A stretch of DNA of 64,000 nt from Nitrosomonas marina (lineage in GTDB: Bacteria > Pseudomonadota > Gammaproteobacteria > Burkholderiales > Nitrosomonadaceae): positions 1-64,000 of the forward strand of contig NZ_FOIA01000019.1 in assembly GCF_900111605.1 (NCBI RefSeq), in the 5' to 3' direction. Shown one piece after another: positions 22,936 to 32,612 of the stretch (the first letter of the stretch is position 1; each line of letters opens with the position of its first letter). The notes beneath the pieces are model-generated. The model was given only the letters and a program-made list of their open reading frames with translations, searched no databases and was not told where the DNA came from. The position numbers and the translations under genes were made by a program.

Positions 22936-25900
22936 TCAGAAATTGATACGTACGCCCAGATTAAACTGACGCCCCCTGCGGAATTGCCGTGTCAATTCGC
23001 CGCCTTGCAAAATCAGCACATCATCATCCAGTAGATTCTGCATATTCAGCCGTACAGACAACCATTTATTTACGGTCTGGTTAAAGACGAAATCGAGCTG
23101 GTGAAACGGCTGTTCAAATTTGTCGGGTGCACCGAGCAGGCCTGCTGACACAATACGTTTGCTGGCTATATTATAGAGCAGTGTGGCCTGCGTTTTCCAT
23201 GCGGGGTTTTCGTAACCGATCTGGAAATTGAAAATTTGTGAAGAATGCCCCTGCAGCGCGCGGTTATTCGTGGTCTGTGCACCCAGATTTTCTTCATTCA
23301 ATTTCACATTGGAATCCGACCAGGTATAGTTGCCACCGGCAAAGAAATTCTCCAGTAACGGATGCAAAAAACCCAGTCCTTTCAGTAATTCCACCTCAAA
23401 TCCGAAAACCCTTGCTTTATCGGCATTCTGATATGTCTGGAGGCCGGCCGTTCCCGGTAGTGTAACGAGTTCAATCGGTTGTGTCAGATCTTTCCAGAAA
23501 AAGCTTGCCATAATCAATTCGCTTGTGGACAGAAAATACTCCCACCGAACATCGAAATTGGTGATATCCGTCTGCTGCAAATTCGGGTTACCGGTCGTTT
23601 CCTGGTTGGTATTAAGATCAGTAAACGGTGCTGGCGACAGTTCCCGGAAATCCGGCCGTGAAATTGTTTGACTGAAACCGGCGCGTAACTGTTGCTTTTC
23701 CGATATGAACCAGGTGGCTGTTGCGGATGGCAGCATATCCGTGCGGTTGATTTCGCTCGTTACCGACTGGTTTGAATTGGCGACAGACTGGAATGTCTCC
23801 ACAAACTGGTCATTCTTCTCCCAGCGTGCGCCACCGGTGATATTAAACCGTTCATAGAGTGCAAGGTCCATTTTTCCGTAATAGGAAAACAGTTTCTGGG
23901 ATGCGTTATAACTGTCCGTCGGACGCGTGGTATCGCGCAGCTGAAACCCGTTTGCGCCGATATTGGAAGGCTGTAAAATCGACTCCAGCGATGACAACCC
24001 AAGAATTGCGGGGTTTGTCCCGATGGATCCTACAGGAAAAAAAGCAAACCGGTTTATTCCGGAATCACGGGTTTTACTCTGATCAATAAATCCGCCATGC
24101 AGATTCAACTTGTAATCCGGCGTTATTTCCAGCGGCAGTTTGGCATCCATGCGCCAACTTTCATCTTTATCGACAAGATCGGCATATAGGATCTGATTGC
24201 TGTCAGCACGCCTTGAAAATGCAAAGCTGCCGTCCGTCATTTCATCATACCGATAATCACGTGTTTTGGGCTCATCTCGTTTGGCAGTTGCATTGGTATA
24301 CAGCCAGTGGATCGACAGATCCTTGGCCCAGTCAAACTGATGATCGCCGCCGACCTGCTGCATGAATAACTGATTGGAAAAGAACCTCAGCTTGGTACGG
24401 CGCACATCGGTCACTTCTGCGTCAGTGAATCCCTGGCTGATACGCGCTTCGTCGACTGCCTGGCGCAAAAACATGGTGCGTGAAAAAATGCGGTGTTTAT
24501 CTTTATATTCGATATCCGCCCCCAGATATCCGTTGAGCTCCATTGTTCGCAGTGACCGTTTGGTATCGAAATCCTGGATCAGCCGCAGGGTATCGCTGCC
24601 GGTCGTAGGGGTAAATTCACGATTGATCTCGTTCTGATTCCTGAACTGCTGACTCCACCCGCCAGCAGCAATAAACCCTGTTCTGAAGTTCCCGATATCA
24701 AATACGTTGCCCATCGCGACATCAAAACCTCTGTCCGGTCCGGGCGTTTTGGTCGATACGTCCCACACATCGGACAGATCTTCGCCAAACGTTTCAAACT
24801 CTTCAGGTGTAAACCCATCCGGGTTAAAAAGAGTCTTCGGCTGCAGCGTACCGCCACCGCTGATAGCATTCGCAATTGAATTCGGCAGGCTGCGCGCGCC
24901 ATCATCAAAACTCAAAAAATCAGTTCCTCCGCCTTTATAGGACAGATTATCAGAAAAAGACGCATTGTCGTTAATCCCGGTACTCGTGCTGAAATTGAAG
25001 AAGAACTCATCCGGTATTCCGCGTGTACGCATTTCCAGCGTACCCCCAGCAAACTCGCCAGGCCTGTCCGACGAATAGGTTTTTTGCACCAGTACGCTGT
25101 CCAGAAAATTAGTGGGAAACAGATCCAGCGGAACGACACGGCGGGTAGCATCCGGGCTCGGGATTGCCGCGCCGTTGATCAGCGTCGAAGAAAACCGTTC
25201 GCCCAGACCGCGAATGAAAATAAACTGGCCACCCACCAGCGTCAACCCGGAAGCTCGCCGCAGTGCGCTGGCCACATCGGAGTCGCCGCTACGGCTGAAC
25301 TGCTCGGCGCCGAGCACTGTCGTCACTTCTGAAGAAGCTTTTTGTTCCTCAATTACCGATGCCAGGGTGCCTGCAAGATGCGGCTCCAGCACGACGTACT
25401 CTGCAAGTTCCACACCAGCAGGTGTGAGTGTAAAAGACAGATCGGTCGTCTGATCCAGGGAAATCTCAACTTCGTCCTGTGTCTGGCTGCTATACGCCGG
25501 ATGCAGTAAAGAAACGCTGTAATTCCCGGCCGGTATTGTAGCTTCCATATTTCCCTTTTCATCGGTTCGAAACTGTTGCCGCAATCCACTGATAAACACC
25601 TGTACATCCTTGACCGGCCGGCTGGTTTCTGCGGAAAGGACTTGTACGCTGATCATGCCGTCGCCTTCTGCCTGCTGTTTTTCGACTATCGCATCGGCAC
25701 CTGCCATCGTTCCAGTCGCAGAACTTTCAATATTCAGTAAAGGCTCGCGCCCGTCGGGAAAAAAAGTAAGCAGAATCTGTGCATTCTCGCCGGGATGCAA
25801 CGGCAGATCAAAGGCATACGACTGATCGCCCGATGACAGCGTCATATGATATTTGCCCGGCGGCAGTTTTGCTGCAATACTGCCGCTGGTATTAGTTTTA

Positions 25901-26154
25901 AGCGCCGCCTGATCATCCCCTCCCCAGCTGTACACAGGCATTTCGTTGATCGATTGACCCTCGGTTACTTCATAATCCAGGCTGAGAATGATCAACTCCG
26001 CCCCTGCAACAGGCATTCCTTCCTGAAACAGATGAATTGAAAACTCGGCCAGTTCAGGATTTTCCGCTTCACTCCAGGCGGAAACAGGGAATAAACAGGC
26101 CGCAAGCAGCGCAAACAGTTGAAACAGACTTTTTATTATATTGTTTTCAGTCAT
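22936..26154 (-). CDS. Large TonB-dependent outer-membrane receptor with two N-terminal carboxypeptidase-regulatory-like domains
   Basis: About 1072 residues from ATG 26154 (a TTG 18 bases upstream is also possible). A signal peptide ends near AWSEAEN. Two Ig-like domains follow at about residues 30-135 and 165-245 (GMPVAGAELIIL with LPPGKYHMTL; SRPVKDVQVFISG with IPAGNYSVSL). A TonB-box-like AEYVVLEP leads to a plug (about 265-385: ALRRASGLTLVGG, FIRGLGERFSS). The rest is a 22-strand-type barrel ending RRGRQFNLGVRINF with terminal phenylalanine. Its ligand is unknown. It is last in an operon with its own TonB/ExbB/ExbD. Confidence 0.93.
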   Translation of the reverse strand: MTENNIIKSLFQLFALLAACLFPVSAWSEAENPELAEFSIHLFQEGMPVAGAELIILSLDYEVTEGQSINEMPVYSWGGDDQAALKTNTSGSIAAKLPPGKYHMTLSSGDQSYAFDLPLHPGENAQILLTFFPDGREPLLNIESSATGTMAGADAIVEKQQAEGDGMISVQVLSAETSRPVKDVQVFISGLRQQFRTDEKGNMEATIPAGNYSVSLLHPAYSSQTQDEVEISLDQTTDLSFTLTPAGVELAEYVVLEPHLAGTLASVIEEQKASSEVTTVLGAEQFSRSGDSDVASALRRASGLTLVGGQFIFIRGLGERFSSTLINGAAIPSPDATRRVVPLDLFPTNFLDSVLVQKTYSSDRPGEFAGGTLEMRTRGIPDEFFFNFSTSTGINDNASFSDNLSYKGGGTDFLSFDDGARSLPNSIANAISGGGTLQPKTLFNPDGFTPEEFETFGEDLSDVWDVSTKTPGPDRGFDVAMGNVFDIGNFRTGFIAAGGWSQQFRNQNEINREFTPTTGSDTLRLIQDFDTKRSLRTMELNGYLGADIEYKDKHRIFSRTMFLRQAVDEARISQGFTDAEVTDVRRTKLRFFSNQLFMQQVGGDHQFDWAKDLSIHWLYTNATAKRDEPKTRDYRYDEMTDGSFAFSRRADSNQILYADLVDKDESWRMDAKLPLEITPDYKLNLHGGFIDQSKTRDSGINRFAFFPVGSIGTNPAILGLSSLESILQPSNIGANGFQLRDTTRPTDSYNASQKLFSYYGKMDLALYERFNITGGARWEKNDQFVETFQSVANSNQSVTSEINRTDMLPSATATWFISEKQQLRAGFSQTISRPDFRELSPAPFTDLNTNQETTGNPNLQQTDITNFDVRWEYFLSTSELIMASFFWKDLTQPIELVTLPGTAGLQTYQNADKARVFGFEVELLKGLGFLHPLLENFFAGGNYTWSDSNVKLNEENLGAQTTNNRALQGHSSQIFNFQIGYENPAWKTQATLLYNIASKRIVSAGLLGAPDKFEQPFHQLDFVFNQTVNKWLSVRLNMQNLLDDDVLILQGGELTRQFRRGRQFNLGVRINF

Positions 26155-26196
26155 TTTTCTGGTATCCGTCAAGCCGGATATTGTGTTTTCATAGCG

Positions 26197-27369
26197 CTAC
26201 ATGCATTTCCAGGGTTCTTCTTTGCACACCTGCATCAACCTGCGTAACTCGACGCCCTTCCTGAACAGTTCGCTCTCGGATAAATGATCCAGGTGTTGAC
26301 TGGCCTGCTCAAACCGGCCACTGGAAAAATAGGCATACGCCAATGCGTATCGAACATGCTGGTCTGTCAAAAGACCAACACGGTACAGACCGGATTCCAT
26401 ATTGGCAGCACGTTCAAATTGCTTGAGTGCCAGCAGAATTGACAAACGCTGTTTGAGTTTGACTTGCTGGTCCTGTATACCCTCGTTCAGTGTCAGTGCT
26501 TTATGAAAACGGTTTGCACGCCGATAAACCTCTGCGGCTTCCGACAACAACTCCGGATTCAGCAATGCTGCCTGCTCCAGAATAAAAGCCGCTGCGTTCA
26601 GCTGTCCCAGATCCAGATAGGTATGAGCAAGCAGCTTTGCTACGGTTTCATGATCAGGAAACTGCAAGCGGGCAATTTCCAGAATATCCAGCGCCTCCTG
26701 GTATTGCTTACTGAGGCGCAGTGCATTACCGATAGCGATATAATCCTCAGCGGCGGCTTGTGACTGGTCAAGATATTCCCTGCCAAGCTTCACCGCTTCA
26801 TGAAACAGCTCCAGCTCGACAAAATAAAACACCTTGCGTCTGAGAAAACTGTAGTCCTGTGGATATAACTGCTGACCCTTGTTCAGAGCGAGAATCGCCG
26901 CCTCTGGTTCTTCCATATGCCAGTAAGACTGCGCTTTCAAAGTGATTAAATTGGCTTTCTGCGCATGTTCGCCTGATTGATCGATCGCCTGAACAGCGTT
27001 TTTATACTCCTTGAGTGCATAGTGCGTCTGCGCGAGATAGGTATAGATCACCGCGTCCGTCTGGCCGTTCGCGATCGCATCCAGCAGACTGTCTTTTGCT
27101 GCGACAAAATCGTTCAGATTGATATATGCGAGTCCCTGCAACGTATAAAAGCGCGCCAGATCGGTATCTTCATCCTCAAGATCGACGCTTTGCAGGGCCA
27201 ATAGTGCGCGATCGCTGTGTCCGTCCCTGAGCATGACCGCAGCCAGTTCAAGAAAATCAACCGGTTGCGATTTATCTTCGGAGCAGGCGTAGGTAGCGGT
27301 AAAACCCAGTAACAGAGCGACACAGAGAATCCCGATTCGCCTGATAAATGCAGTGATATGTGTGCGCAT
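26197..27369 (-). CDS. Periplasmic TPR protein of the TonB cluster
   Basis: A 390-residue protein with a signal peptide ending near FTATYAC, then about ten tetratricopeptide-like repeats (for example ARFYTLQGLAYINLNDFVAAK and VIYTYLAQTHYALKEYKNAV) covering nearly the whole length. TPR arrays act as protein-docking scaffolds. Genes like this follow tonB in TonB2-type clusters of Vibrio and relatives and probably assist the receptor or TonB complex. It lies 15 bases downstream of tonB and 42 bases upstream of the receptor gene, so it is part of the operon. Confidence 0.88.
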   Translation of the reverse strand: MRTHITAFIRRIGILCVALLLGFTATYACSEDKSQPVDFLELAAVMLRDGHSDRALLALQSVDLEDEDTDLARFYTLQGLAYINLNDFVAAKDSLLDAIANGQTDAVIYTYLAQTHYALKEYKNAVQAIDQSGEHAQKANLITLKAQSYWHMEEPEAAILALNKGQQLYPQDYSFLRRKVFYFVELELFHEAVKLGREYLDQSQAAAEDYIAIGNALRLSKQYQEALDILEIARLQFPDHETVAKLLAHTYLDLGQLNAAAFILEQAALLNPELLSEAAEVYRRANRFHKALTLNEGIQDQQVKLKQRLSILLALKQFERAANMESGLYRVGLLTDQHVRYALAYAYFSSGRFEQASQHLDHLSESELFRKGVELRRLMQVCKEEPWKCM

Positions 27370-27383
27370 TCAATGAAACCTGA

Positions 27384-28037
27384 TCACGACAAATCAAATC
27401 GAATTCGCTGCTTTGCCCATACCCTGACTACTTCACCCTTGTATTTTGCCGGTTCGAATTGCCAGGCACGGATACCCTGCAGTGCCGCGGCATCAAAAAC
27501 ACCGTTTGGCTGAGATTCCAGTACCTGGACCTGGCTTACAGACCCATCTTCTGTAACCAGTATCGATAGCACAACATAGCCCTTGATACCGTTTTTCTTT
27601 GCCGAAGGCGGATACCTGAACGAACCTGTCGAAACAGCGCGAGGCGGCTCATCGACCAGTTCGGCAGTCATCACGGCATTGCTCGTATCGCCTATCAAAG
27701 ATTCATCCAGCTCACCTAACTGACCGGCATTGAAACCGAGCATTCCCAAATCGATGCCGGACAATGCCGTGTCAAGCCCAGTAAACGGTGCTGGCGCCTG
27801 ATTGGGTGTCGTACGCCGCGGCGGCGGTGTTTTTTTCACTTCCTGTTTGGGCTCCTCCTTGATCTGTTTGACCATCGCGATCTCGGTAACTTCCTGCGGT
27901 GGTGTTTGTTCGATCTGTCCCAGAAAGTGGTTCATGGCCAGTATCATATTGAAAATCAAGATCGGTCCAAACAGCATTGTAAGTGCTGCAATTCTGTGTT
28001 TATTACTGAAAATTGTTTTTTGTGATGTTGACATCAT
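27384..28037 (-). CDS. tonB: TonB-like energy transducer
   Basis: A 217-residue TonB2-type protein. One N-terminal membrane helix (ALTMLFGPILIFNMILAMNHF) is followed by a short Pro/Lys-rich spacer (EEPKQEVKKTPPPRR) and the C-terminal TonB domain (about 140-215) with GSFRYPPSAKKNGIKGYVVL and AALQGIRAWQFEPAKYKGE. The YP box contacts receptor TonB boxes. It is shorter than E. coli TonB (239) and like Vibrio TonB2. It follows exbD by 16 bases. With its own motor genes it likely serves the receptor two genes downstream. Confidence 0.92.
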   Translation of the reverse strand: MMSTSQKTIFSNKHRIAALTMLFGPILIFNMILAMNHFLGQIEQTPPQEVTEIAMVKQIKEEPKQEVKKTPPPRRTTPNQAPAPFTGLDTALSGIDLGMLGFNAGQLGELDESLIGDTSNAVMTAELVDEPPRAVSTGSFRYPPSAKKNGIKGYVVLSILVTEDGSVSQVQVLESQPNGVFDAAALQGIRAWQFEPAKYKGEVVRVWAKQRIRFDLS

Positions 28038-28053
28038 CGTTTACCCCCATGAT

Positions 28054-28458
28054 TTATCCCGCTTCTTTTTTGGTCGCCACGCCGACACTTTCCGCACCGG
28101 ACAAACGTGCCTGATCGACGACTTCAACCAGTTTTCCTGCTGGAACGCCTTCGTCAGTGACTACCAGAACTACTTTATTGGTGGATGTACTCAGCAGATC
28201 GCGCAATTTGCTTTGTATTAACCAGACCCGGATTGGCTCGCCATCAAGATAGGTATCGCCATGCTGATCCACAAACAAACGAATGGCTTTACTCGATACA
28301 GCGACAGAACTGCTCGCCTTGGGTCGCTCCAGTTCCAGTTGCATGTCTTTAACAAACGTAGTGGTGACCATAAAAAAAATCAGTAATATAAATACGATAT
28401 CAATCAGTGGCGCGATATCGATTGATGCTTCCGTCTCATCTGAATTGTCGATGTTCAT
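28054..28458 (-). CDS. exbD: ExbD-type biopolymer transport protein
   Basis: A 134-residue motor subunit with one N-terminal membrane helix carrying the essential aspartate in IDIAPLIDIVFILLIFFMV. The periplasmic domain follows with the conserved RLFVDQHGDTYLDGE and VVLVVTDEGVPAGKLVEVVDQ. It works with ExbB to turn proton-motive force into TonB movement. It starts 6 bases after the small exbB gene ends. Confidence 0.94.
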   Translation of the reverse strand: MNIDNSDETEASIDIAPLIDIVFILLIFFMVTTTFVKDMQLELERPKASSSVAVSSKAIRLFVDQHGDTYLDGEPIRVWLIQSKLRDLLSTSTNKVVLVVTDEGVPAGKLVEVVDQARLSGAESVGVATKKEAG

Positions 28459-28464
28459 TTTGAA

Positions 28465-29085
28465 TTATCCTGTTGTCTGGCCTGTTGCAGCCTGTGTACA
28501 CATCAATTCCTTGAGTTGCGTTAACTCCCGCTCAATCTTCTGTTGCTTCTTGTGGAGAAATCCATGCAGGAACAATCCTGGAATAGCTACGGACAAGCCC
28601 ATCTGCGTGGTAATCAGTGCCTGAGATATTCCACCCGCGATACCGCCCGACTGGGTAAACAGGGACATGGAGCCCAGTGAATCGAATGTTTCGATCATGC
28701 CCATTACAGTTCCCAGCAATCCCAGCAAAGGCGCGATAACAACGGTTGTTTTGACCAGCACCGAAAATTTTCGGGCTTCTTTGAAATAGTCATAAAAAGC
28801 TTCGTCAAGAATTCGACGTAAATGCTTCCGGTCAGGTGCATTCAACGAAACAGCCCTTTGCGCTGCCTGCTCCACAATACTTTTTGCCAATTGATCCGGT
28901 TGCTTGCTGTATAGAACCAGCATGTCATGAATCGTTTTTTTTCTCGGTGTTCTCAATGCCCAGCAGCGATAGCCCAGCCCATACCACAACAGCAGCGCGC
29001 AAAAAATCAACGGCAACATGACATAACCGCCGGCATTGAATAAGTCCTTGGACATCAGGATGTACTCATGCATATTCATGGACAT
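28465..29085 (-). CDS. exbB: ExbB-type proton channel protein
   Basis: About 206 residues from ATG 29085, which has AGGA a few bases upstream; further in-frame ATGs at 29079 and 29073 are possible. Three membrane helices: GGYVMLPLIFCALLLWYGLG, then the MotA/TolQ/ExbB core with FSVLVKTTVVIAPLLGLLG and MGMIETFDSLG, and GGISQALITTQMGLSVAIPG with the conserved threonine. It is the smaller of two ExbB homologues in this operon and the one whose length matches Vibrio ExbB2. It starts 7 bases after the larger one stops. Confidence 0.9.
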   Translation of the reverse strand: MSMNMHEYILMSKDLFNAGGYVMLPLIFCALLLWYGLGYRCWALRTPRKKTIHDMLVLYSKQPDQLAKSIVEQAAQRAVSLNAPDRKHLRRILDEAFYDYFKEARKFSVLVKTTVVIAPLLGLLGTVMGMIETFDSLGSMSLFTQSGGIAGGISQALITTQMGLSVAIPGLFLHGFLHKKQQKIERELTQLKELMCTQAATGQTTG

Positions 29086-29092
29086 TCTTTTC

Positions 29093-30607
29093 CTAGCCCG
29101 CCGGATTACTCGATACCCTGATGGAACTATCGCCGGATCCAGCGTCAACACGTTCCATTTGCACATTGCTAAGGAAAGCGTTTGTGACTCTGAGTGCAGC
29201 ATGTTCCATATCACGTTTGATATTTCTTGCCCAGGCTGCCAGCAGGGAACCGATCAGCAAGGTTGGTATGGCGACTGACAGACCCAGTTCAGTCGTAACC
29301 AGGGCAATTGAAATGCCGCCCGAGAGCAGTTTTGGATCGCCGGTTCCGAATTCCGTTATGACATCGAAAGTGGCTATCATCCCCGTCACCGTACCCAGCA
29401 GTCCAAGCAACGGTGAAACGGAGGCAATGACAATAATTGCCGAACCGAAGCGCTCCAGCGTACCGGACTCCCGCAGAATGGCTTCGTGCACAACGCTTTC
29501 CATGTGATCCCTGTCATCTTTCAAATGAGTCAGCGTATTGGCCAGAACACGAGTCATGGCTGTCGACCCATTCTCACAACGCTGTTTTGCGGCATCAAAA
29601 TCTCCGCTTGACACCTGCTGTATGACTTCTTCGGAAATTTGCTGCGTGTTGGCGCTGTTGGTTCGCAGCAGATAAACCCGGAATATTGCCAGCAACACAG
29701 CCAATAAGCCGAGCGCGACTATGATCCAGCCGATAATACCGCCTGAATTGATAATACTGAGCAGTGTTTTCTCAGCTGCTTCATCAATGGATGCTGTTCG
29801 CGATTCAAACAGAAAGAGTCTTAAAATTTCGGGTTGCTGATTGTTGTTTAACGCAAGTGCTGAATCTTCAGCGCTGGGCTCTTTCCACATTTTAAGATCG
29901 CCACCACCGGCCGGTACCAGACTGCCGCTGCCTTCCTCGCTGATGCCATATGCGGCAATATTGCCCAAGCGAATGATATCGCCTTGTATCTGTTTGCCGG
30001 TCTCCAGAAAAAATTTACCGGACTCTGTTTTGACCAATCCGAGATCACGAATCAATGAAAGCGCCTGATCAAAAATGAAACCCACTTTGGTCGGGTCATT
30101 TCCCTTGGAATCCATCAGCGATGCCGGTAACTGTATCTCGTGATTTTTCAGCGTTGAGTCGGCCTGTGCGTATGTTGCCTCCAATGCATCGTTGCGCTCG
30201 AATATCGCAGCCTCTTTTCGTTCTGCATCTGCCAGTAACGCATTCAACTGATCGATTCTGGCAGAACGTTCGATTGACTTCTGCTCCAGTCCATTAATTT
30301 TCTGGCTCAGCGCCTGTGCTTCCTTTGAAGCGCTGGCCTGATAATTCCTCAGCCGTTCGGTCAGTTCTCTTTTTTGTGCTTCCAGAAATGCATGCTCACG
30401 CTTGTATGCTGTTTCGAGACTGATTTTTTCCCGTTCTGGCGCTGGCTGATTCTGCTTGGCACTGGGTTTCGCTGCTGCACTGTCACCCTGATCAGCTGCC
30501 TCTACTGTTGTCTCGTTGGTTTTTTTCTCCTGAGCACTGGCCAAACCGGCCGTAATGATCAGATTGACACATAATGCCAGGGCCAAAATCAAGTAATTTT
30601 TTTTCAT
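29093..30607 (-). CDS. TtpC-like large ExbB/TolQ protein with periplasmic coiled coil
   Basis: 504 residues. A signal peptide (ALALCVNLIITAGLASAQ) is followed by a long charged coiled-coil region (about 50-150, EREKISLETAYKREHAFLEA, AEALSQ-type heptads) and a small periplasmic domain. A membrane helix (GGIIGWIIVALGLLAVLLAIF) leads to a C-terminal ExbB/MotA domain (VSPLLGLLGTVTGMIATFD, GGISIALVTTELGLSVAIP). This is the architecture of TtpC, the fourth subunit needed with TonB2-ExbB2-ExbD2 in Vibrio. The ATG overlaps the DUF3450 stop by 4 bases. Confidence 0.9.
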   Translation of the reverse strand: MKKNYLILALALCVNLIITAGLASAQEKKTNETTVEAADQGDSAAAKPSAKQNQPAPEREKISLETAYKREHAFLEAQKRELTERLRNYQASASKEAQALSQKINGLEQKSIERSARIDQLNALLADAERKEAAIFERNDALEATYAQADSTLKNHEIQLPASLMDSKGNDPTKVGFIFDQALSLIRDLGLVKTESGKFFLETGKQIQGDIIRLGNIAAYGISEEGSGSLVPAGGGDLKMWKEPSAEDSALALNNNQQPEILRLFLFESRTASIDEAAEKTLLSIINSGGIIGWIIVALGLLAVLLAIFRVYLLRTNSANTQQISEEVIQQVSSGDFDAAKQRCENGSTAMTRVLANTLTHLKDDRDHMESVVHEAILRESGTLERFGSAIIVIASVSPLLGLLGTVTGMIATFDVITEFGTGDPKLLSGGISIALVTTELGLSVAIPTLLIGSLLAAWARNIKRDMEHAALRVTNAFLSNVQMERVDAGSGDSSIRVSSNPAG

Positions 30608-31389
30608 TTTCTTAAGGGATTGGGTAATTCAAAATAGCCCTGGCGAATCTGTTTCTTCAGGGAATCAAACAATGTCGCAATACGACTAATATCGCCGGTA
30701 CTGCTTACCGCTTCAAACCGCCACTCGCCGTTTTCGGCCTGCTTTGCCATTCCGGCCCTGTTGTCCCTTGTTTGAAAGAAAAGAAATACCGTTCCCAGTT
30801 TTGCGATATCCGCAAGCACTTTTTCACCATCAAGCAGAATGGCCTGTTGGTAAATTCCGTTTTCCTTGCTCAGGCGGATTTCATCTTCAATCAAAGCCCA
30901 TGCCTGGTTGACTGCCTTATTCGGATCGACGAGATCATTGATGATATTGTCTTCCAGCGTCTCAATGGCCTTGACACGGTCGTCAATTTTGAATGGAAAT
31001 CCTGTCAGCACATACTGCCTGTAACGTGCCAGTACCTTGAGCAAAACCGGTTTTAGCTGCTCACCTGACTGTTCAGCCTGCGCGGAGGCCTCAGTCAGCT
31101 TCTCCAGCGAATGCTCGAGTTTTTCAATCGCAGTGTTTTGTCGTCTCTCCTCTACGCTAAGATCAGCCAGCTGAGAAGACAAGGAAGTGATTTTACTTTT
31201 GTGTTTGTCTTTTTCCAGATCAAGCTCTGTTTGGAGCGCTTCAACTTCTCCACGAAGTTTTGCCAGCGAACGTGCCAGATTTTCAATATTATTTGCTTTT
31301 GCCATCGATACTGGCGCCAGCCAGAACACCCAGAACATCATGAACAGAAGCAAAGGGGCTTTCCACCAACCTGCATTCATTTTTCTCAA
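30604..31389 (-). CDS. DUF3450 periplasmic coiled-coil protein
   Basis: A 261-residue exported protein and first gene of the TonB operon. A signal peptide (LLLFMMFWVFWLAPVSMAKA) is followed by a coiled coil at about residues 33-110 (NIENLARSLAKLRGEVEALQ, then KITSLSSQLADLSVEERRQN). The conserved DUF3450 region follows (RYRQYVLTGFPFKIDDRVKA, AWALIEDEIRLSKENG, LGTVFLFFQTRD). Such genes regularly precede ttpC-like genes in TonB2-type clusters; their biochemical role is unknown. The paired coiled coils of this protein and its neighbour suggest a periplasmic complex. ATG 31389 or 31380 are both usable. Confidence 0.88.
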   Translation of the reverse strand: MRKMNAGWWKAPLLLFMMFWVFWLAPVSMAKANNIENLARSLAKLRGEVEALQTELDLEKDKHKSKITSLSSQLADLSVEERRQNTAIEKLEHSLEKLTEASAQAEQSGEQLKPVLLKVLARYRQYVLTGFPFKIDDRVKAIETLEDNIINDLVDPNKAVNQAWALIEDEIRLSKENGIYQQAILLDGEKVLADIAKLGTVFLFFQTRDNRAGMAKQAENGEWRFEAVSSTGDISRIATLFDSLKKQIRQGYFELPNPLRK

Positions 31390-31562
31390 ACCTTTGATAT
31401 ATGTTGCTTTCAGAAAAATTCCGAGACCATTCCTTATGCAACATTATTAAAATTATTTTACGAGCGCATGCTACTAAGCGAATGTTTCATTTTCATGACA
31501 CTTTGGTGAATTTATTCAATAACCCCACTATCTTTATAAATGCAGCCGCAGTATTTCGTGTA

Positions 31563-31580
31563 ATGTCACAAAACTGTCAT
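31563..31580 (+). promoter_or_regulatory. PHO box (PhoB binding site)
   Basis: Two direct 7-base repeats, ATGTCAC and CTGTCAT, separated by AAAA, match the E. coli PHO-box consensus (CTGTCAT, four A/T bases, CTGTCAY) at 16 or so of 18 positions. TGTCA occurs at 31564-31568 and 31575-31579, an 11-base period. Orientation is towards phoB. Confidence 0.8.
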
Positions 31581-31590
31581 CTAATCTTTG

Positions 31591-31596
31591 TAATAT
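31591..31596 (+). promoter_or_regulatory. -10 element TAATAT downstream of the PHO box
   Basis: TAATAT begins 11 bases after the end of the PHO box, the distance at which PhoB replaces a -35 element in Pho promoters. It predicts a phoB transcript with an untranslated leader of roughly 260 bases. Confidence 0.6.
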
Positions 31597-31865
31597 TTTT
31601 GCAACTTGTCATGCGTTGAATAGATACGATTGGCGTATTGCACGGTCTAAACACATAGCCGGATAACAGGAAAGAGGCTGAATACAAAGCCTACACCCCG
31701 TTGTCGATAGTTATTTTGTATGTATTTTTATGTATGTTTATGCAACGGCTGTAATGAAAACAGCAATACATCCGTAAAATAGGCTGTTCTACCGGCATTT
31801 ACAGACATAGTGTTCAGCAGTGAATATTTTTGAATAAACGTCATATATTAGATGGAGCTTCTCTA

Positions 31866-32612
31866 ATGTCTATAACCGTACTGGTCGTGGAAGATGAACC
31901 GGCAATACAGGAATTGATTTCCTATAATCTGAAAAAATCGGGACTGACGCCTGTCTGCGCGATGGATGCCGAACAGGCGACTGTAATGGTCAATAACGTA
32001 TTACCCGACCTGGTATTGCTTGACTGGATGTTACCCAAATCCAGCGGAATCGAGTTCGCCCGCCAGTTAAGACGCAATACGCGGACGCAGTCAATCCCGA
32101 TCATCATGCTAACTGCAAGAATCGATCTGGATGACAAAGTGACCGGACTCGAAGCCGGTGCAGATGACTATATCACCAAACCGTTTTCACCCCGCGAATT
32201 GATAGCGCGCATCAAAGCTGTGTTACGCCGGCGCGTGCCAGAGATATCGGAAGAAATCATCGAAGCCGGCGGCCTGAGAATCGACCCGACAACGCACCGT
32301 GTTTTCGCCTATCACGACGATAATGCAGCTGCTGAACCCACCGAGGTTAAACTCGGCCCCACCGAATTTCGTCTGCTACATTTTCTCATGGCGCACAAGG
32401 AGCGCGTCTATACGCGCACGCAACTGCTCGACCGCATCTGGGGCGACCATGTATTTATCGAAGACCGAACCGTCGACGTTCATATTCGCCGTCTGCGCAA
32501 GGTGCTGGAAAAAATCGGCAAGGATTATCTGGTGCAGACCGTGCGAGGCACGGGATACCGGTTTTCGAGTGATTACGAAACAGACTCAGGGGAACAGCAG
32601 CAACAATCGTAG
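31866..32612 (+). CDS. phoB: PhoB-type response regulator
   Basis: OmpR/PhoB-family transcription factor, 248 residues from ATG 31866 (GGAG upstream; an upstream ATG at 31830 would add 12 unconserved residues). The receiver domain has VVEDEPAI, phospho-acceptor D53 in [15 protein letters not shown] and the lysine of [10 protein letters not shown]. The C-terminal winged helix ends [35 protein letters not shown] is PhoB-like. A PHO box upstream supports identity and autoregulation. No phoR kinase gene follows: the next gene is convergent hypX. Confidence 0.92.

Follow-up and report, generated by a model that had tools for sequence, protein, structure and literature searches.

The window analysed here, a 64,000-nucleotide stretch of the Nitrosomonas marina genome, carries a seven-gene TonB operon and a phoB gene that diverge from one intergenic region, and a promoter of the Pho type faces each of them. 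The best reading of the locus, which we regard as probable, is a PhoB-activated TonB-receptor-ElpS system that scavenges a phosphorus compound, and comparison of related sequences supports the regulation of the operon by PhoB and phosphate. A wider proposal, evenly balanced in our estimation, is that this represents a distinct and widespread PhoB-controlled TtpBC-ExbBD-TonB-TPR motor with a receptor and an ElpS-like partner scavenging phosphorus, and that in the N. marina lineage the TonB-linked phoB has displaced the canonical one and works with an orphaned phoR.

Pho-type promoters between the TonB operon and phoB

The initial annotation had described a seven-gene TonB operon divergent from phoB, and domain matches of all seven genes confirmed it. 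On the minus strand, the first gene encodes a DUF3450 protein (TtpB-like, 30604..31380, its start inferred from those of relatives), followed by a 504-aa ExbB-family protein with a long N-terminal part in the TtpC-like position (29093..30607), a second ExbB-family protein (28465..29085, start inferred), an ExbD-family protein (28054..28458), a TonB-family protein (27384..28037), a TPR protein in the TtpD-like position (26197..27369) and a TonB-dependent receptor with a carboxypeptidase-regulatory-like domain and a plug (22936..26172). The TonB2/Ttp gene order, namely DUF3450, TtpC-like ExbB, ExbB, ExbD, TonB and one further gene, is present. The intergenic space, earlier given as 476 bases, is rather 485, with the DUF3450 gene most likely starting at ATG 31380. 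Over 261 residues the DUF3450 protein shows no difference from its N. marina Nm22 counterpart (100% identity), and the two intergenic regions share 99.2% identity; the protein belongs to a divergent subgroup, scoring 115 bits against the Pfam model as compared to mostly 200-324 bits elsewhere in the class sample.

Facing phoB on the plus strand, a Pho box ATGTCACAAAACTGTCAT (ATGTCAC AAAA CTGTCAT) is present at 31563..31580, with TGTCA repeats at 31564 and 31575, 11 apart, followed by the spacer CTAATCTTTG (31581-31590) and by TAATAT at 31591..31596, whose role as a -10 element is deduced from the spacing. The repeats and the TAATAT had been read correctly in the initial annotation, but the gap between box and -10 is 10 bases and not 11. 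Among 2000 Markov shuffles generated from the 487-base region, none matched the score of this box (a simple two-half-site score). The Pho word by itself is little proof, as the exact word TGTCAY-N5-TGTCAY occurs 8 times without mismatch across the 3.49 Mb genome, the phoB-side box included, and at up to 2 mismatches it gave 412 and 412 sites as compared to 429 and 408 with a reversed-pattern control. Since these counts equalled the control, conservation and spacing were used in place of the word alone, and the case rests on spacing, -10 and conservation.

Each of the 19 phoB-operon regions (the window and 18 others, G006 contributing two) has a Pho promoter ahead of its TonB-linked phoB, with a score reached by no more than 2 of 300 shuffles, which supports, at the level of sequence, the phoB autoregulation that had been predicted. 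The promoter lies 64-141 nt from the phoB start codon in 18 of these regions and 303 nt away in the window. The predicted phoB leader of the window (31597..31865, plus strand), about 260 bases, exceeds those of relatives, and alignment of leaders placed about 150 extra bases at 31640-31850, common to N. marina Nm22 and missing from the three related leaders aligned. An RNA element in this leader was rejected, as no Rfam match was obtained up to E 1, and no second copy of the leader was found within the genome.

On the other side, a GTGTCAT half-site had been noticed earlier on the strand of the operon. It is indeed present at 31495..31501, but it is not a lone one, being the middle of three half-sites in the element AATTCAC-CAAA-GTGTCAT-GAAA-ATGAAAC-N10-TAGCAT (31512-31468, minus strand). 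The distal half-site AATTCAC (31506..31512) is ATGACAT in many relatives, the -10-proximal half-site ATGAAAC (31484..31490) is commonly NTGAAAT, and the operon -10 TAGCAT (31468..31473), commonly TAGTAT in relatives, follows 10 nt past the array. The layout of a Pho promoter, with TGTCA-type half-sites 11 bp apart, about 10 nt and a -10, was thus found on both sides of the intergenic region, the -10-proximal half-site on the operon side being degenerate, with TGAAA and not TGTCA in the window and most of the genus.

Scored singly, the operon-side promoter of the window is modest (reached by 2 of 100 shuffles). When 56 distinct operon upstreams were scored (the window, 54 of the Nitrosomonas type and one from Methylomonas), no more than 5 of 100 shuffles equalled the promoter score in 51, these being counts over related and so not independent sequences, and the weaker upstreams L070, L086, L090, L162 and L177 were reached by 6 to 24 of 100. 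The top-scoring pair is, in some upstreams, that of the two distal half-sites and not the -10-proximal pair. The Methylomonas operon promoter, TTGACATATAACTGTCAT-N10-TATAGT, was reached by none of 100 shuffles. We aligned 45 Nitrosomonas upstreams less than 80% identical to each other, among which L081, L088 and L092 were poorly anchored, the box being too near the end of the stretch. Conservation was 0.99 bits per base at the distal half-site, which lies outside the anchoring word, 1.60 at each of the other two half-sites and 1.46 at the -10, as compared to 0.08, 0.30-0.35 and 0.27, respectively, with the same alignment on shuffles; the flanks held 0.08 bits per base upstream and 0.17 downstream.

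For 22 of the 56 upstreams, no PhoB was found in the surrounding sequence that was read, several of these stretches being truncated at the end of a contig. In the one-contig genome G028 the operon lies at 2.6 Mb and the PhoB genes at 0.32 and 0.83 Mb, and despite this distance the operon promoter scored 26.75 (0 of 100 shuffles). Whether relatives that share the gene pair also conserve the Pho box had been proposed as a test of the phosphate reading; the Pho sites are kept there, and the reading was not refuted.

The TonB-linked phoB and a phoR without phoB

The phoB gene of the window (31866..32612, plus strand, ATG at 31866) encodes a protein that matches TIGR02154 at 348.8 bits over residues 1-234, above the equivalog cut-off of 296.2, and that falls short of the PRK10161 threshold (302 vs 471 bits). 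VEDE, LLDWMLP, LTAR and TKPF, which we take to be the receiver motifs, are all kept in its translation together with the phosphoacceptor aspartate, and solved PhoB chains were matched by the receiver (1b00, residues 3-125) as well as the DNA-binding domain (1gxp, 126-235). At E 1e-80 the N. marina genome has 1 PhoB gene, as compared to at least two in 24 of 37 Nitrosomonas genomes. After the window phoB, the next-best match in the genome was only 2.6e-34, and four other long PhoB-like matches show 35-37% identity.

A phoR gene was found on another contig (C90:91966-92952, 450 bits). The order on the phoR side in nine relatives, whose regions were picked through their phoB match, is ubiE-DUF971 / phoB-phoR; in the window genome phoB does not directly precede phoR, and DUF971 is followed by phoR with no phoB between. 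In a tree of 37 PhoB proteins, 9 phoR-linked proteins were separate from 19 TonB-linked ones (support 98/92), the remaining 9 rows lying outside both groups, and the window PhoB grouped with the TonB-linked set. Given the DUF971-phoR arrangement without phoB and this placement in the tree, this genome has apparently lost the canonical phoB, with the TonB-linked copy (phoB2) retained as the sole PhoB found. The gene had been called an orphan phoB, which holds in that no phoR adjoins it; the term needs the correction that it is an orphan at this locus because its likely partner phoR sits on a separate contig, itself without phoB. As in the canonical phoB-phoR pair, a TIGR02154 PhoB equivalog and phoR are both present in the window genome, whereas the pair is split and the remaining phoB is the TonB-linked paralogue.

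The LLDWMLP phosphoacceptor motif is missing from the TonB-linked PhoB of the L086, L162 and L181 lineage. The L086 protein is the longest branch of the PhoB tree, and no operon promoter among the 56 is weaker than those of L086 and L162; regulator and site are possibly decaying together in this lineage. Two genes, one for a receiver-TPR protein and a short one of the histidine-kinase-like type, are located between operon and phoB in N. aestuarii (L154:6352-8670), and also in G006, both pointing in the direction of phoB. Three genes, those for DUF3450, the TonB-linked PhoB and the ElpS-like protein, each occur twice in the one-contig genome G006 (C1). A gene for a matrixin/serralysin-like secreted peptidase (by Pfam) lies near phoB at L165:1758-3296, and peptidase genes resembling it, by the likeness of their starts, lie near phoB in L159, L160 and L177.

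Occurrence of the operon and its candidate phosphate-linked partners

The DUF3450 gene was found in 30 of the 61 genomes searched (37 of the genus and 24 from other families of the order), all 30 within Nitrosomonas and including G004, where it is a mere fragment at a contig end. Across the class, the DUF3450 profile at E 1e-25 recovered 12 of 369 genomes, two being Nitrosomonas. The order of the motor genes is unchanged in all ten non-Nitrosomonas loci. In nine of them the receptor is the last gene of the operon; the contig of the tenth stops ahead of the receptor. A Pho promoter was present at p<0.05 in 7 of 8 of these other-family loci, L220 and L224 having been omitted from the test for too little upstream sequence. 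Among 30 control loci, which were the best Pfam DUF3450 matches, a Pho-like promoter was present in 4 and a Fur-like site in 3, and the other-family operons differed from these controls with a Mann-Whitney p of about 1e-4. Two of the control positives, L247 and L254, include receptor and ElpS-like genes as well and are therefore not clean controls; the check for these genes among the 30 covered L247 and L254.

The gene after the receptor in many relatives encodes a secreted protein of about 530 aa with no Pfam family above cut-off. We named it ElpS-like on account of the order of receptor and T2SS genes in three loci, L303, L307 and L312, each of which has GspD by NCBIfam, with GspE confirmed for L307, and its identification rests on gene order shared with Caulobacter elpS; in Caulobacter crescentus the order is elpS (cc0170)-cc0171-gsp, according to excerpts of the report (PMC2996285). 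No solved relatives of the ElpS-like protein were found, and its AlphaFold2 model has a mean pLDDT of 39.7. In the window genome the gene is unlinked (C78:95539-97131, 75% identity) and sits behind ATGTAACACTCCTGTCAT-N10-TAAAGT, which was reached by none of 200 shuffles. For a scan of ElpS-like upstreams, rows identical over 200 bases were dropped first, and of the 36 that remained nine (L226-L234) were set aside, as the match starts within the protein and the stretch scanned could be coding sequence. A Pho site at 10 or fewer of 200 shuffles was present in 26 of the 27 Nitrosomonas and Methylomonas copies, the exception being L174 (22 of 200).

At E 1e-20 the ElpS-like family was found in 51 of 398 genomes across the phylum. 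The receptor adjoins the ElpS-like gene in all 12 loci read (11 from the phylum search and L310 from the DUF3450 class sample), and a Pho-like site (at most 15 of 300 shuffles) is present ahead of the ElpS-like gene in only 7 of the 12, the gene start used for L304 being a guess. A divergent phoR-phoB pair lies beside the ElpS-like/receptor pair in L302.

Other genes linked to phosphate accompany the operon. By reading, a PsiE-type gene is present between operon and phoB in 6 of 19 gaps; on the Pfam test (cut-off 23.9 bits) those of L162 (32.4) and L181 (25.3) passed, and a third protein was just short at 23.3. Candidate Pho-like sites (no shuffle comparison) stand ahead of several PsiE-type genes, and PsiE was not found in the window genome. 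A PstS-family gene is located one gene past the receptor in three distant loci, two called by Pfam and the third by a closely similar reading frame. A protein of about 360 aa that has no Pfam match is encoded between the receptor and the PstS-like gene at L231:2198-3280 and L230:3583-4662.

As a positive control, the three PBP_like_2 genes of the genome gave a Pho box at 0 of 300 shuffles, one at 2 of 300 and none (133 of 300); the pstS Pho box at 0 of 300 comes with a poor -10. Among the seven other exact Pho-word sites, only the one on C47 has, by eye, a fair -10 rightly placed before a gene. This site, CTGTCATTCCGGTGTCAC-N10-TAAAAT at G000 C47:39774-39790 (L152), precedes frames that were named by reading as glycosyltransferase-like, diacylglycerol-kinase-like and CHAD-like, and the cluster is a candidate for Pho-controlled lipid remodelling.

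Proposed mechanism, alternatives and known systems

The initial annotation had suggested a phosphate-starvation TonB operon. The suggestion gains support from the sequence comparisons, as the operon-side element keeps its sequence, its strand and its -10 spacing even without an adjacent phoB, recurs in other families, and is of the same box type as that of the unlinked ElpS-like gene. Under phosphate starvation, PhoR, encoded alone on the other contig, would phosphorylate the window PhoB. PhoB-P at the Pho box 31563-31580 would raise phoB transcription, and on the tandem array 31512-31484 it would activate the divergent seven-gene operon, which would yield a TonB2/Ttp-type energising complex together with its own outer-membrane receptor. 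The unlinked C78 gene, for a secreted ElpS-like and possibly beta-helical protein, would be turned on via its own Pho box. Motor, receptor and ElpS-like protein would scavenge a phosphorus compound, the receptor delivering it into the periplasm, from where Pst would take up phosphate. We infer the phosphorus substrate and the direction of transport, and likewise the binding of PhoB, activation by it and its partnership with PhoR.

It is rather unlikely that the operon is PhoB-controlled while its receptor imports a non-phosphorus cargo, for example a metal or vitamin for phosphate-starvation enzymes. The substrate is unreadable from sequence, and the best solved-structure match of the receptor is weak and distant (9gbc_A, E 0.0015). 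However, excerpts of the Caulobacter report propose that ElpS participates in phosphate mobilisation (PMC2996285), and the PstS-family gene one gene past the receptor in three loci likewise argues for a phosphorus compound.

We consider it improbable that the Pho box serves phoB alone and that the TonB operon is an ordinary Fur/iron or constitutive system, adjacent by chance. The closest characterised motor, TonB2 of Vibrio vulnificus, does have a Fur box and is iron-induced, as described in excerpts of the report (PMC6957404), and the operon-side site of the window is modest when scored singly; against this, the array is on the strand of the operon, is conserved and is independent of phoB adjacency. 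With a nearly palindromic Fur word, the best match on the operon strand was 12 of 19; 286 of 500 shuffles did at least as well, which places it at chance level, in agreement with the initial annotation, in which no Fur-box-like sequence had been noticed. None of the 8 other-family loci had a Fur-like site at p<0.05. Iron control was rejected on these grounds, the Fur control that is the regulatory trait of Vibrio TonB2 not being found in the window operon.

Slighter still is the likelihood that the sites bind a different OmpR-family regulator with similar tandem repeats, the adjacency of PhoB being incidental. Sites of the OmpR family are tandem repeats, and the four further long PhoB-like matches in the genome could supply such a regulator; but the half-site consensus and -10 spacing, which we take to be of the PhoB kind, the similar boxes at the pstS, phoB and ElpS-like genes of the genome, and the PsiE-type and PstS-family genes that accompany the operon in relatives speak for PhoB. 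That PhoB at the operon array represses the operon is very improbable, for although sequence does not reveal the direction of control, the array ends 10 nt ahead of a conserved -10, and a box ending 10 nt before the -10 is the layout of PhoB-activated promoters.

If the reading of a PhoB-activated TonB-receptor-ElpS system is true, a TonB2-type motor under phosphate control would provide a defined outer-membrane route for phosphorus compounds, in a system that spans ammonia oxidisers, a methanotroph and other Gammaproteobacteria. TonB motors have mostly been studied as iron machinery. The system would also hint at the role of the phosphate-starvation lipoprotein ElpS and its receptor, and would be a clear case in which a transport-system-borne regulator copy has assumed control of a global regulon, in organisms of importance to nitrification. 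Among openly licensed PubMed Central papers, we found no publication on this N. marina locus and no report that a Pho promoter drives a motor-receptor operon of the DUF3450/Ttp type or that such an operon is linked to a phoB paralogue.

The principle of a phosphate-linked TonB motor is not new, exbB2D2-tonB4 of P. aeruginosa being the precedent, which makes the idea likelier and slightly less new. As given in excerpts of the report, phdA-pdtB-exbB2D2-tonB4 (PUMA3) forms part of a regulon under the sigma factor VreI and PhoB in phosphate starvation (PMC4971064), and ExbB2/D2 are named among low-phosphate genes of P. aeruginosa in excerpts of another (PMC7480860). PUMA3 resembles the window operon in having the TonB motor genes exbB2, exbD2 and tonB4 in a PhoB-governed transcript, and differs in that VreI acts together with PhoB, in its location beside vreAIR and in the receptor-like VreA, which is without a barrel (PMC4971064). 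The excerpted text mentions neither DUF3450/TtpC/TPR genes nor a linkage to phoB (PMC4971064), the clusters being compared by description and not by sequence.

TonB2 of V. vulnificus, in the excerpted description (PMC6957404), has the order ttpB2-ttpC2-exbB2-exbD2-tonB2-ttpD2, and the likeness to the window operon lies in DUF3450 as the first gene, TtpC as the next and one gene past tonB. The TPR protein holds the last-gene position in the window, and the proteins are likened by gene order alone. In contrast to the six genes with a Fur box in Vibrio (PMC6957404), the window has the receptor as a seventh gene and a Pho array.

In Caulobacter, PhoB controls various TonB-dependent receptors that are thought to import phosphate donors, and the excerpted account mentions neither a TonB motor operon nor a phoB linked to one (PMC11208175). 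The elpS gene of that organism encodes a surface/secreted lipoprotein, is induced by phosphate starvation and adjoins the gene of receptor CC0171, which was reported as constitutive by RT-PCR (data not shown in the source; excerpts of PMC2996285). ElpS/CC0171 and the loci described here are alike in having a secreted-protein gene beside a TonB-dependent receptor gene, in the same order in L303, L307 and L312. Unlike in Caulobacter, as far as the excerpts describe it, these genes are accompanied in Nitrosomonas and the other-family loci by a TtpB/C-ExbB-ExbD-TonB-TPR operon; there the receptor operon carries a Pho promoter of its own.
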